From contig MPPA01000022.1 in assembly GCA_001896725.1 (NCBI GenBank), positions 1 to 64,000 of the forward strand: DNA of 64,000 nucleotides. Reading direction: 5' to 3'. The notes under the pieces are model-generated. The model was not told the origin of the DNA. It searched no databases and was given only the letters and a program-made list of their open reading frames with translations. The stretch is from Methanococcoides sp. EBM-47. Its GTDB lineage: Archaea > Halobacteriota > Methanosarcinia > Methanosarcinales > Methanosarcinaceae. Positions 211 to 14,600 of the stretch are shown here, piece by piece. The translations under genes and the position numbers were made by a program. Within the stretch, counting starts at the first letter, position 1. Each line of letters starts with the position of its first letter.

Positions 211-229
211 TTATTAATTATATAAAATA
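211..229 (+). promoter_or_regulatory. TATA-box promoter of the permease operon
   Basis: An AT-rich element (TTATTAATTATATAAAATA) lies 18-35 bases before the ATG of the 33-residue peptide at 246. It fits an archaeal TATA box placed after the mtmB terminator, so the permease group probably has its own promoter. Confidence 0.5.
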
Positions 230-245
230 GCGGAGGCATATTAAA

Positions 246-347
246 ATGGATACATGGACCTTAATCAATGGTTCAATTTATCTTATCGATTGCTTGTTGA
301 TAGGTTGGGTGCTGCTAGATGCTGTAAAGGTATCAAAAAAATCTTAA
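246..347 (+). CDS. 33-residue single-span membrane peptide upstream of the permease
   Basis: An ATG at 246 has a good ribosome binding site (GGAGG about ten bases upstream) and opens 33 codons ending TAA at 345-347. The peptide runs MDTWTLINGSIYLIDCLLIG and then WVLLDAVKVSKKS: one hydrophobic segment of about 18 residues with a lysine-rich, probably cytoplasmic tail. The next gene's Shine-Dalgarno (GGAGGG, 350-355) begins three bases after the stop, so it would be translated as the first gene of the permease operon. No function is known to me. It could be a small transporter subunit or a leader peptide; a membrane subunit seems likelier because two more small membrane proteins follow the permease. 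Confidence 0.6.
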   Translation: MDTWTLINGSIYLIDCLLIGWVLLDAVKVSKKS

Positions 348-362
348 AAGGAGGGTTGCTCA

Positions 363-1745
363 ATGGTCGAAGAAATGAGTTCAGAATCCCCCACCCTTGT
401 AAAAACGTTGAGACCTTATCACGTGTGGGCTCTTGGAGTTGGAATAGTGCTTGTTGGAGAATATATGGGGTGGAACTTTACAGTTGCTAAGGGTGGTATA
501 CTTGGTTCACTGTTTGCATTGCTTGTGGCGGGTACTATGTATGTCATGGTAGCGCTGTGTGCCAGTGAGCTTGGAGCCGCTACAAAACTTGCAGGAGGAC
601 CCTATGACTGGGCAAGATTGTTTATCGGACCTGGTGCAGCTGCCATAGTTGGTCTTGCAGTGTACATGGAATATATTGCTCTGGAAGCTGCAGATTCAAT
701 TGTCGTAGCATCAATAGCCCAATCGATCTTCCCAGAGATACAAGTATTACCCGTAACATTGCTTGTGATATCTATCCTTACATTTATTAACTATCGCGGG
801 GTCGTGGCTGCACTTACTCTTAATTTTGCACTAACTATGACCGCTTTCATAGCTATAATCGTGTTCTTCTTCTTCAATCTTCTGGGAATTGGAAACATAC
901 CATGGAACCCTGCAGAACTGATATCAGGTGCCATGCCCAATGGGCTCGTGGGCATATTTGCTGCATTGCAGTTCGGTCCCTGGTTCTATCTGGGAATAGA
1001 AGGCGCAGCAATGTGTGCAGAAGAATGTAAGCATCCTTCAAGGGCAGTTCCACTGGGACAACAGGCAGGTATGATCACTCTGCTTATTGGGGCAAGTATG
1101 ACGCTATTTTTATGTTCTGGCCTTATACCCGCATCAGTGCTCGGCGTATCTGTATACCCCCTGTATGAGGCAGCAACCGCAAGTGGTATGTATTTCTTGG
1201 TAGTGTTTTTGGCCATAGGTACGCTGTTTACCTGTCTTGCTAGTGCAAACGGATGTGTGTGTGACTCTTCAAGATCGTGGTTTGCATTGTCCAGAGACCA
1301 CTTCCTGACACCCTGGTTCTCGGCTGTACATCCCAGGTATTTCACCCCTTATAGGGCTGTGATCTTTACAATGCCCATTGCTATTGCTTTTGCATTCAGT
1401 GGTTTTCTTGACCAAGTTATAACCTTCTCAATTACATCAGGAATGGTTGCCTATGTTATGATACCATTCTCCCTGATAAGGTTCAGGAAAATGTTCCCAC
1501 AACATTCAAGCAAGGTACGTCCGTTCATTGGTCCCCTGCAACCATGGATAGCTTACTTTACTATATGCCTGGCAATGACAATATTGTCAACACTCAATTG
1601 GGGATACCGCTACAATCTGATCTTTGGATTGGTGTTCTACATAATAGCGTACTTCTACTTTAACTGGAGGTACAAGAGCATAGAGAGTGAACATGACTGG
1701 GAACGCGATATGGGATGGCCAAATCCGATAATTCACAGGAGCTAA
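363..1745 (+). CDS. mtmP: APC-family permease, probable monomethylamine transporter
   Basis: This 460-residue polytopic protein of the amino acid-polyamine-organocation superfamily has about twelve hydrophobic segments. The N-terminal HVWALGVGIVLVGEYMGWNF and the GPWFYLGIEGAAMCAEE segment resemble ethanolamine/methylamine permeases. It lies directly downstream of mtmB, where methanogen methylamine permeases (MtmP) are found, so import of monomethylamine is the likely role; this is inferred from family and position. The start at 363 is set by GGAGGG at 350-355. It is followed at short spacing by two small membrane proteins and preceded by a 33-residue membrane peptide, apparently all in one transcript ending at the hairpin at 2297. 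Confidence 0.85.
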   Translation: MVEEMSSESPTLVKTLRPYHVWALGVGIVLVGEYMGWNFTVAKGGILGSLFALLVAGTMYVMVALCASELGAATKLAGGPYDWARLFIGPGAAAIVGLAVYMEYIALEAADSIVVASIAQSIFPEIQVLPVTLLVISILTFINYRGVVAALTLNFALTMTAFIAIIVFFFFNLLGIGNIPWNPAELISGAMPNGLVGIFAALQFGPWFYLGIEGAAMCAEECKHPSRAVPLGQQAGMITLLIGASMTLFLCSGLIPASVLGVSVYPLYEAATASGMYFLVVFLAIGTLFTCLASANGCVCDSSRSWFALSRDHFLTPWFSAVHPRYFTPYRAVIFTMPIAIAFAFSGFLDQVITFSITSGMVAYVMIPFSLIRFRKMFPQHSSKVRPFIGPLQPWIAYFTICLAMTILSTLNWGYRYNLIFGLVFYIIAYFYFNWRYKSIESEHDWERDMGWPNPIIHRS

Positions 1746-1760
1746 TATGGAGGGATAAAG

Positions 1761-2030
1761 TTGTCAAATATCAATAATAACAGATATCACAGTAAATTGT
1801 ATCAGGATGCTGGGGTCATTGTGTTGCTGCTGGCACTGTTGTATTTCTCTGAACTGTTCATGATATACAATGTATTGTCAACGATAGGAACTAATGCCAC
1901 AATACCATCCACTCTTCTGGGACTGTATGCGCTGTTCATAACCCTGTTGCTGGGAATAGAAACATTGGGATGTATGGGTGTATATAGATCCATCAAAAAG
2001 CACATGTTCGAATTTGAATACTACGATTAA
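1761..2030 (+). CDS. Small two-helix membrane protein of the permease operon
   Basis: This 89-residue protein uses a TTG start at 1761 preceded by GGAGG (1750-1754). Two strongly hydrophobic stretches (roughly residues 17-40 and 49-72) are joined by a short loop, followed by a charged tail (SIKKHMFEFEYYD). I recognise no named family. It begins 15 bases after the permease stop and is followed 11 bases later by another small membrane protein, so all three are probably co-expressed. A role as an auxiliary subunit or stabiliser of the transporter is inference from position. Confidence 0.7.
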   Translation: MSNINNNRYHSKLYQDAGVIVLLLALLYFSELFMIYNVLSTIGTNATIPSTLLGLYALFITLLLGIETLGCMGVYRSIKKHMFEFEYYD

Positions 2031-2041
2031 GGAGGTATAAG

Positions 2042-2296
2042 ATGGCAGGAGCAGTTAAAGAGGAAGGTGACAAAGGAGTGTTCATGAGGATCTTTGATAT
2101 CCTCTTTATCTTCATAGTTGCTTTTACCTGTGTGGTAACACCGGTGGTCTTGCAAGGAACTGTGCTTGTAGGGTGGGGAGAAAGCGGAGCCATGAAATTT
2201 GTATGGGATCCGGTATCCTACTTTTCATCCCTTGGAGTAATAATAGTGTTCTTTGTGGTTATATTGTATCACTCTGTGAAACATTATAAATTCTAA
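2042..2296 (+). CDS. Second small two-helix membrane protein of the permease operon
   Basis: This 84-residue protein has a strong AGGAGGT ribosome binding site before the ATG. Its N-terminus is charged (MAGAVKEEGDKG), followed by hydrophobic spans at about residues 16-40 and 58-78 and a short basic tail (YHSVKHYKF). It does not look like a copy of the preceding 89-residue protein, although size and topology are similar. It is the last gene before the terminator at 2297-2313. No family was recognised; a transporter accessory role is inference. Confidence 0.7.
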   Translation: MAGAVKEEGDKGVFMRIFDILFIFIVAFTCVVTPVVLQGTVLVGWGESGAMKFVWDPVSYFSSLGVIIVFFVVILYHSVKHYKF

Positions 2297-2313
2297 TGCC
2301 AGCTCTGCTGGCA
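2297..2313 (+). terminator. Hairpin terminator of the permease operon
   Basis: TGCCAGC-TCT-GCTGGCA forms a perfect seven-base-pair hairpin starting at the base after the stop codon of the second small membrane protein. The downstream sequence (CTTTATTTA) is T-rich but without a long U-run. Confidence 0.6.
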
Positions 2314-10763: not shown

Positions 10764-11607
10764 TCCCTGCCAGAACCTCACTGGGATCATCATCAGAAAT
10801 ATATGAAGGATATATGAACAGTTCTCCGAACAGCTCATTCTGCTGGAGCCATATTTTCTTCTCAGTAGCAAGGAAAAGCAGGGAAACATAGGTCATTATG
10901 TTCTCTGATCTTTCTTCGCCCATCAATTCAGAGAACACAACAGATTCATGTTCTTCAAAAACAGAATCAAGTACATGGTTAAGTCTGGCAACACGCCCAA
11001 GAATATCTTCTTCATGGGCTATCCCCAGAACCTCATCAGTGGTGACAGCAACCCTTTCTTCAAGTTTGCGAATCAATTTTTTTTCCCTTTTTCTGTGTTC
11101 TACCCTTTCAGCTTTTTTCAGTTCAACTATAAGTTCTTGTAGTGTCACAGGTCTTGTGGCAATCCTTCTCACAGGCAGCTTTGGCACTGGATAATCATCA
11201 ACTTCAAAGAAGTCCATACTGTCTTCGAACGCATCGGTTTCTTCTGGCTCGCCCATATCTACCCAGTTAGATTTCATGCGTAAGAGTATGGAAGCATAAA
11301 GCAGTGTTCTCCCTGAGATGCGCAGGTCCATCAGCTGTATGTTTTCTATATGTGCTAGGAACTTGTCGGTGACGCTAACAATATCAATATCCCATGGATC
11401 AATTTCTCCATTTTTGGCGAGATTTACCAATATCTCTACGGGTTCGTTCATTACATCGTCAGAAAATTCAAGCAGGTTCTCATCAACTCCCAGAGAGCGC
11501 AGTGTCTCAAGGAATTCAGGGTCTATAGTCCCTGACAGCAAAGAACGGCTTTCAGAAAGAGGTTCTACTACAGTTGGTGTTTTAAACTCCTCTATGATAT
11601 TGCTCAT
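10756..11607 (-). CDS. scpA: Segregation and condensation protein A (kleisin)
   Basis: This 283-residue kleisin bridges the SMC heads. Recognisable features are the early EPVEILVNLAKNGEIDPWDI segment (ScpA N-terminal domain contacting the SMC neck), the LLYASILLRMKSNW helix, a basic-acidic linker, and a C-terminal winged helix (VSLLFLATEKKIWLQQ). Its ATG overlaps the smc stop by four bases, and its end overlaps scpB, so all three form a coupled operon. Confidence 0.92.
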   Translation of the reverse strand: MSNIIEEFKTPTVVEPLSESRSLLSGTIDPEFLETLRSLGVDENLLEFSDDVMNEPVEILVNLAKNGEIDPWDIDIVSVTDKFLAHIENIQLMDLRISGRTLLYASILLRMKSNWVDMGEPEETDAFEDSMDFFEVDDYPVPKLPVRRIATRPVTLQELIVELKKAERVEHRKREKKLIRKLEERVAVTTDEVLGIAHEEDILGRVARLNHVLDSVFEEHESVVFSELMGEERSENIMTYVSLLFLATEKKIWLQQNELFGELFIYPSYISDDDPSEVLAGNE

Positions 11608-14600
11608 CTGAACTTCACACCTGTTATGCTTGTAATGTCATTCTCCTGCATTGCAACACCTATGGTTCTTGAAGCTGCTTCTATCATTGGTTTTCTCAGA
11701 GAAACAACAATGAATTGGGCATTTCCCACAGATTTTTTTACTCTTTCAGCCACTTTAGCAGCATTGGCCCCGTCAAGGAACATATCTATCTCATCAAAAG
11801 CGTAGAATGGTGCAGGTCTGTATTTCTGAATAGCGAACACAAATGATAATGCAGTAAGGCTCTTTTCACCGCCTGACATAGCTTCAAGGCGTTGTAATGT
11901 CTTTTCCTTTGGTTGAGCCCTCAAAGTAAGTCCACCGCTGAAAGGATCCTCAGGATCATCTAACACAAGCTCCCCACTACCATCTGAAAGCTCATTGAAT
12001 ATCTCGTGGAAGGCAATATTTATTCCGTTATAGGCTTCCATAAAAGCCCCTTTTTTGAGTACTTCATATTGCTTGATCCTTTCCAAGATCTGCTCCCTCT
12101 CATTGAACAGAGTGTTCCTTCTTGACCTGAGATCTTCCAGTCTTGCCTCAACTTCATTGAACTCATCTATGGCCCTCATGTTGACAGGCTCCAGACGTTC
12201 CATTGCCTTCTCAATAGAGGATATCCTGGTACGCACGGTCTCAGACCCAGGAACATCATCTGTTTCCTCGATACCTCTTTGTGCCAGTTCTACTGTCAAT
12301 TCTGTTATCTGTTCCACAAGAGCCGCCTGAGTGGCTTCCATAGCCATCAGTTGTCTGCTACCTTCCTCGAACCTTGTCCTAGAGGACTCAAAATGTTTCC
12401 TGGAAAGGCCATACTCGTTTTGCATATCAAGACGCTGCTGCTGCATGCCTTTTAACATATCAACAAGCTCTGATTCCCTGGCTTGTTTTTGGGTAAGCAC
12501 TACTTCAAGCTCCTCGATCTTTGCCGCAAGCTCATCTACACGTTGTTTATGATTTATTTTCTTTTCATCCAGAGATCTTATGATCTCCCTGTTATCTTCT
12601 ATCCTGCCAGTAGCATATTCATTGTCAAGGTTAAGGGCATTGATATGTGCTTCAACGTCACGGATACGCCCTTCCAAGCGCCTCAGATCTTCATCAATGC
12701 TCTCTGCTTGCCTGTTCAGCTCAGGAACTTCAGATCCGGCAAGTTCACTTTCAAGTTCAGAGATCCTCTCTTCAAATAAACTGGCCTGTTCATCTTTTTC
12801 TCTTTTCTGAACAGTTACAGATCCCATTTCTGTTCTCAGTTGCTTGCGAACCTCTTCGATCTCTTCAAGTTCGGCATTCTTTGCTGCCAGCACTTGTGCC
12901 AGGCGCTCGCCTCTGCCGGCGATCTCCTCAAGCTGCATTTCTTTACGGGCGATCTCTTTGTCATGCTCATTCATTTCCCGGTTAACATCAGCAATATGGC
13001 TTTCCAGCGTATCCAGTTTTTTGATCGCTGCACCACGTCTTGAATCAAATTCAGTGATCTTCTCTGCTACTTTTATGAGCTTGTCCTTCTCTGAGGCGGC
13101 AAAGGATAGCCCGGAACTCTGCACTGAACCACCCACCATAGCACCACTTTTCTCGATAAGCTCCCCTTCCAGTGTTACCATTCTCAAACCGCCCATAAGC
13201 CTGCGGGCGTTCTGCAATGTATCTACCACAAGGGTATCTCTGAATATATACCAGAAGACAGACTCGAACTTTGGTTCGAAGTCCACAAGGTCTATCGCAT
13301 AGCCTATAACACCACTTCTGCCACTGAGATCTTTGTAAGGCCTTCGATCTTCCATTTTGTTAAGAGGAAGGAATGTAGCCCTGCCAGCCTGTCTGCGTTT
13401 AAGAAAATCTATCGCTCTGGCAGCATCTTCATCAGTGTCCACTACTAATGCCTGCATTTTCCCGCCTGCAGCTATGCCAAGAGCAGTTGCATACTTCTGG
13501 TCTACACTTCCAAGTTCTGCGACGGTGCCATATATTCCAGGAAGTCCGTGATGCTTTTTTTCATTAATTATCATGTCCACAGCTTTAGAATATTTGCTGT
13601 GGTCCTCTGCAGCCCTCACTCTGGCCTCGATACGGGCATAATCGTCCTGGTATTTACGCAGCGATTCTTCGATATCTTTTATCACTCCTTTGAGCTGGGA
13701 GCGGTTACTTTCAAGGTCGTCCATATCCTTTGTGAGAGAATCTATTTTCTCATTGAGCTTCTCAATATCATATTTAACAGAACCTATATCACTATCTGAA
13801 GAAGCAGCCTTTGAACGGGCATCTTCCATCTCGCTCTCAATATCCCTTACCTCAGCTGATTTGCGCCTCAAGGCATCAAGTATCCTGTCTTCCTGGCGCA
13901 TAAGCTCGTTCTTCTCATTTCTAGTGTTCTCGAGACTGTTCTTAAGCTGGCTAAGTTCATCCCGGGTCTTGGAGAACTTTGCGTCCACATCGGATATCCG
14001 GCTCTGCAGTATCATTCTCTGGGTCTGTTTTTCTGAATGCTCTGCCCTGATACTTTCAAGACGTACTTTTTCTTCATTTATTTTAGCATCCAGGTCAGAT
14101 ACCTTGCCTTTGATCTCATCTATCTCTACAAAGGCCCTCATCCTTCTGGAATCCACATCTTCCAGTTCCCTGTCTGCAAGTTCTATACTGTCCTTACACC
14201 GTGAGATCTCACCAAGTGTAGATTCTATATCCTTCTTTATCTGGATCTGCTCATCTTCTCCCATCCGCTGTATCCGGAGAGTGAGCTCTTCAAGTGATCT
14301 CTCAAGTTCTTCCATCCGCTGACGTCTTTCTTCAAGAGTAGTTTCCAGCTCTTTAATGGAAGATCTGCATGATCCCATATCAGCATCGATTGATACAAGC
14401 TCCTTCTTAGCATCCATGAGCCTTGCAAGAAGCATGAATCCTTCAAATTTCGTTTTTTCTTCTTTCAACGCCTGATATTTGAGTGCCTGATCCCTTTCCC
14501 CTTTAAGTTTTTTGAGCTGTGCATCAACTTCTTCAAGGATGATGTCGACTCTTTCCACTCTCTCCCTTACGATCTCAAGCTCACTGAGAGCTCTTTCCTT

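Follow-up and report, generated by a model that had tools for sequence, protein, structure and literature searches.

Organization of the permease locus

The window analysed in this study, a stretch of 64,000 nucleotides from Methanococcoides sp. EBM-47, opens with the end of a monomethylamine methyltransferase gene (mtmB), whose 5′ part is missing as the contig starts at window base 1. The gene end is followed by a tightly spaced cassette (246-2296) encoding a permease (P) and three small membrane proteins (A, B and C), which in archaea are found in the order A-P-B-C. The features of the locus are:

1 to 141, + strand: C-terminal end (46 residues) of mtmB, monomethylamine methyltransferase (PF05369, E = 3e-16)
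154 to 178, + strand: terminator-like hairpin with a T run, separating mtmB from the cassette
246 to 347, + strand: A, single-span peptide of 33 residues, with GGAGG at 231-235
363 to 1745, + strand: P, APC superfamily permease of 460 residues (PF00324, E = 9e-36)
1761 to 2030, + strand: B, two-span protein of 89 residues with a TTG start
2042 to 2296, + strand: C, two-span protein of 84 residues
2297 to 2313, + strand: terminator-like hairpin closing the cassette 3′ of C

An earlier sequence-only reading had described four consecutive genes with individual Shine-Dalgarno sequences, set between a terminator on the mtmB side and a hairpin at 2297. Upon re-reading of the ORF positions, all four are located where they had been placed, each with its own GGAGG at a distance of 5–12 bases from the start codon and with the two hairpins on either side, and hydrophobicity agrees with the assigned number of spans, one in the 33-mer and two each in the 89-mer and the 84-mer. 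Throughout the 64-kb window, only six ORFs of 25–100 residues have both a GGAGG and a membrane-like segment, and A, B and C account for three of them.

Directly 3′ of the cassette (2358-2825), the window encodes a protein resembling desulfoferrodoxin/superoxide reductase (PF01880, E = 1e-23). Among the 77 archaeal loci described below, a homologue is found 3′ of the cassette in 44, from Methanococcoides, Methanohalophilus, Methanolobus and Methanohalobium, and is absent from the loci of Methanosarcina and Methanimicrococcus. It is possible that this gene is tied to an oxygen-sensitive corrinoid or permease system.

Sequence properties of the permease and its small neighbours

The assignment of P to the APC superfamily is based on its matches to PF00324 (124 bits, cut-off 24.6) and PF13520 (77 bits, cut-off 27). 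Its nearest named model is the ethanolamine permease TIGR00908, where P scores 215.1 bits and its bacterial orthologue 180.6 bits, both under the equivalog cut-off of 381.75. Orthologues of P were identified in 68 of 112 Methanosarcinaceae genomes and, with a sequence identity of 44–48%, in methylotrophic Proteobacteria. Its position next to mtmB, whose C-terminus is encoded at 1-141, agrees with an assignment as mtmP, and P probably imports methylammonium, to judge from gene context only. In several Methanosarcina genomes, the P gene is distributed over two frames (G076 C2:155056-156392, G009 C160:5332-6677, G075 C1:302-1638 and loci L077 and L078), which may reflect pseudogenes or sequencing errors.

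The three small proteins are uncharacterised and carry the label hypothetical in bacterial records. Searches against Pfam and NCBIfam retrieved scattered sub-threshold matches and no family that would cover any of the three, and querying the PDB with the three sequences returned nothing meaningful. AlphaFold predicts two long helices for both B (pLDDT 85.6) and C (pLDDT 68.9); fold-search matches of the B model were dismissed as chance matches to coiled coils. Each protein contains an aspartate that is invariant or nearly so (D25 in A, D16 in B and D19 in C). A is a single-copy gene in the genome of the window and in six bacterial genomes that were searched as a whole. A second C-like match within the window (11536-11802, E = 0.002) is spurious, as it runs antisense to chromosome-segregation genes. 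None of the loci read encodes a small protein naturally fused to the permease.

Conservation and selection in archaea

In profile searches of 77 Methanosarcinaceae loci, A was detected beside P in 76, B in 77 and C in 76 cases, with A located directly upstream of P, B downstream and C after B. The sole gap concerns a single locus (L074), where the contig stops behind B and an ORF resembling A can be made out by eye. These loci are partly redundant, and those entered into trees comprise 58 distinct permeases; the trees of B and C combined return the same paralogue groups as the tree of P. In Methanosarcina acetivorans C2A, the cassette was located at about 168,984-171,055 on the minus strand. 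A phylum-wide draw of 295 genomes contains C in 28, all of which also encode P (28/28), and the listed Methanosarcinaceae of this draw without C are also devoid of P (14/14).

Pooled over 17 species pairs, pN and pS amount to 0.031 and 0.212 for A (ratio 0.15), to 0.068 and 0.316 for B (ratio 0.22) and to 0.042 and 0.269 for C (ratio 0.16). With pN far below pS in each case, all three evolve like translated proteins subject to purifying selection, and conservation and dN/dS together exclude that A, B and C are chance ORFs. The sequence-only reading had proposed a search for the small genes beside methylamine permeases of other Methanosarcinaceae and a test of Ka/Ks against neutrality. Both have come out in its favour, and the observation extends over a far wider range than had been guessed, with counterparts also in bacteria.

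Counterparts in methylotrophic bacteria

The archaeal gene order A-P-B-C is replaced by the order B-C-A-P in bacterial cassettes, where P is preceded by an A-like single-span protein of 46–61 residues and a C-like two-span protein of about 130 residues, and where a two-span protein of about 100 residues takes the place of B. We searched 6,435 bacterial ORFs with profiles built exclusively from archaeal sequences. The top 33 matches of the C profile are the expected ORF, one in each of 33 loci, and the top 16 matches of the A profile are the ORF directly before P (best E = 6e-6), with A profile matches beside P in most bacterial loci, whereas the B profile misses the bacterial protein at E = 1e-3. 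Comparison of archaeal with bacterial profiles yielded E-values of 8e-12 for A with A, 3e-4 for B with B and 1e-4 for C with C, and no off-diagonal matches. The weakest link is the putative equivalence of the bacterial protein of about 100 residues with B, which has an hhalign probability of 39% and is suggested by this score together with position, length and topology.

Bacterial C contains about 45 extra residues between its two spans and bacterial A a longer conserved tail, which is soluble and includes the motif SREGE, and the subunits of the two domains are thus not strictly equivalent. The same tail bears on the role of A. Being located directly upstream of P in both domains, the 33-residue ORF might act as a leader peptide in regulation, coupling translation to the P gene, and have no function as a membrane protein. 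We consider this highly improbable, given that its conservation resides in the amino acids and not in the codons (pN/pS 0.15), that the bacterial homologue carries a further conserved soluble tail and that A has its own strong Shine-Dalgarno sequence and a typical membrane span.

Two more conserved and uncharacterised genes follow 3′ of P in 32 of the 33 bacterial loci (for example L093:5373-6340). They encode a protein of about 230 residues without a Pfam match and another of about 100 residues with weak similarity to DUF5683, neither of which is part of the archaeal operon.

Co-occurrence in a fresh set of genomes

In 398 freshly drawn Pseudomonadota genomes, the P subfamily is present in 14, and C was detected in the same 14 and in one further genome (G604, E = 3e-4), where the match is spurious, with a broken frame and three stops. 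A and B were found beside C and P in all 14 genomes (14/14), 13 of which had been held out, while one (G365) had been used in training. As negative control we employed the ethanolamine permease, which occurs in 45 of the same 398 genomes: none of 30 of its loci from this set contains A, B or C beside it. In archaea and bacteria alike, A, B and C all adjoin this particular permease subfamily.

Gene neighbourhood of the cassette

In archaea, mtmB is found upstream of P in 68 of the 77 loci. Four Methanosarcina loci contain the cassette without mtmB nearby and with no methyltransferase gene in sight. An orphan second copy type of the whole A-P-B-C cassette is observed in Methanosarcina and related MAGs (L060, L063, L066 and L078), with mtmB being absent from the fetched flank, and these copies possibly serve another amine. 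In bacteria, 19 of 33 loci contain the N-methylglutamate synthase genes mgsB and mgsC in the stretch that was fetched, and one locus (L104) has a gene resembling gmaS (Gln-synt_C) upstream. Plasmid pAMI6 of Paracoccus aminophilus carries the cassette in divergent orientation to gmaS-mgsCBA, in a region whose annotation reads hypothetical-hypothetical-hypothetical-amino acid permease-hypothetical-hypothetical. During growth of Methyloversatilis universalis FAM5 on methylamine, genes of the N-methylglutamate pathway are upregulated 6- to 10-fold and so are co-clustered conserved proteins (PMC5023235), which may include those of the cassette. The cassette is independent of its neighbouring metabolism, which involves mtmB in archaea and mgsABC or gmaS in bacteria. 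As the archaeal and bacterial pathways have only methylamine in common, the permease with its small partners constitutes the constant element.

The described distribution also speaks to a separate function of B and C, which might form a membrane device of their own, for example to export or conduct the ammonium, protons or sodium that methylamine use releases, and share with the permease nothing but the pathway. Such a function would be in line with the two-span topology of both proteins and with the fact that they remain adjacent in archaea and bacteria despite their different placement with respect to A and P. However, B and C never appear without this permease (28/28 archaeal and 14/14 proteobacterial genomes), and they follow the permease and not the pathway, being retained in the four Methanosarcina loci that lack mtmB nearby, which together leave an independent device improbable.

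A candidate multi-subunit methylammonium transporter

The arrangement of the ORFs, their conservation as proteins, the exclusive and nearly perfect co-occurrence with one permease subfamily and the methylamine-related gene context together point to a four-part carrier. We thus propose as the most economical account, with a probability of roughly 70%, that the cassette encodes a single transport system, consisting of a methylammonium permease of the APC superfamily with LeuT fold and three dedicated small membrane subunits. In such a system, A, B and C would bind P within the membrane and would be needed for its folding, stability or gating. The distribution of charges predicts for A an extracellular N-terminus and an intracellular C-terminus, with its lysine-rich tail inside. 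The conserved aspartates D25 of A, D16 of B and D19 of C would be placed at or near the membrane boundary, where they may form salt bridges with the carrier. Since A directly precedes P and B directly precedes C in archaea and bacteria, even though the pairs have changed places, the gene order suggests A with P and B with C as assembly units.

A point against assigning the small proteins as subunits is that co-occurrence could also reflect a shared pathway without contact. Moreover, the same co-occurrence and operon data would be accounted for if A, B and C were assembly or quality-control factors dedicated to the permease, that is membrane chaperones interacting transiently and not as stable subunits. 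Such behaviour has a parallel in the 31-residue MgtS, which binds to other transporters and makes them more stable, yet is not an essential subunit (PMC5803215). Three conserved proteins with invariant charges across two domains exceed what a simple stabiliser would appear to need, which argues weakly against chaperones, and we regard this role as unlikely.

A stronger version of the proposed four-part transport system would make it a hetero-oligomeric carrier of the APC/LeuT fold with three obligate micro-subunits that set methylammonium selectivity, coupling or gating, common to methanogenic archaea and aerobic methylotrophic bacteria. We put this forward tentatively, as a possibility that is more doubtful than dedicated subunits as such. 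If true, it would define an undescribed transporter architecture that has moved between domains as one cassette with rearranged gene order. If the permease needs its three small partners, heterologous expression of its gene alone would probably fail, and annotation would miss part of the transporter or leave it hypothetical. The entry of methylated amines into methanogens and methylotrophs is largely uncharacterised, even though these compounds are major methane precursors in saline sediments, and the conserved set offers a precise and testable parts list in the genetically tractable hosts M. acetivorans, Paracoccus and Methyloversatilis.

Comparison with known systems

The sequence-only reading had known of no description of small partners for methylamine permeases. 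This stands for the set of A, B and C, for which we found no description as a conserved set in the open literature. As a general statement it needs some qualification, since sORF_05 of Methanosarcina mazei was reported as a translated small membrane protein adjoining the trimethylamine permease MM_1691, with a speculated role as subunit (PMC11456600). Like A, sORF_05 is a tiny single-span membrane protein beside a methylamine-type permease from the same archaeal family. Unlike P, MM_1691 appears to be MttP, a member of a family of about 350 residues outside the APC superfamily, and we therefore rejected sORF_05 as a published homologue of A. In the genomes read, the neighbour of MttP is a 49-residue protein (MVQ..AAAMEAYNAYW), probably the counterpart of sORF_05. 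The genome of the window itself contains an mttB-mttC-MttP locus (L127:1-2750, G000 contig C15) with a single-span protein of 49 residues similar to the one beside MttP in Methanosarcina. A search of the MttP regions of these genomes with P gave no match, and neither did the A profile against the 49-residue protein. Methylamine permeases thus appear to have gained small partners on at least two occasions.

Other carriers are encoded together with a protein of one or two spans, such as MetS of MetP, DUF485, DUF997 and DUF4212, to none of which A, B or C shows a Pfam or NCBIfam match. The ethanolamine permease TIGR00908 is the nearest named family of P, yet its loci are free of A, B and C (0/30). 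In the mammalian heteromeric amino acid transporters LAT1-4F2hc and b0,+AT-rBAT, which are among the sequence relatives of P in the PDB, an APC carrier is combined with a dedicated single-span partner, as proposed here, whereas their heavy chains have a large ectodomain and no relationship to A, B or C. With respect to A, an analogy is found in GkApcT, an APC-superfamily transporter distantly related to P (E = 1.6e-9), against which the peptide MgtS packs (PDB 5oqt/6f34; PMC5803215). Both pairs would place a single-span peptide of about 31 residues against an APC-superfamily carrier. MgtS, which is not homologous to A, is foreign to GkApcT, having been picked up from the E. coli expression host, and has its N-terminus inside, whereas A comes from the same locus as its permease and is predicted to have its N-terminus outside, and the complex may by analogy serve as precedent for the packing of a span of about 30 residues on the APC fold. 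The cassette is real and conserved, and while small accessory subunits are a known theme among transporters, a set of three, accompanying an APC carrier in both archaea and bacteria, would be unusual.
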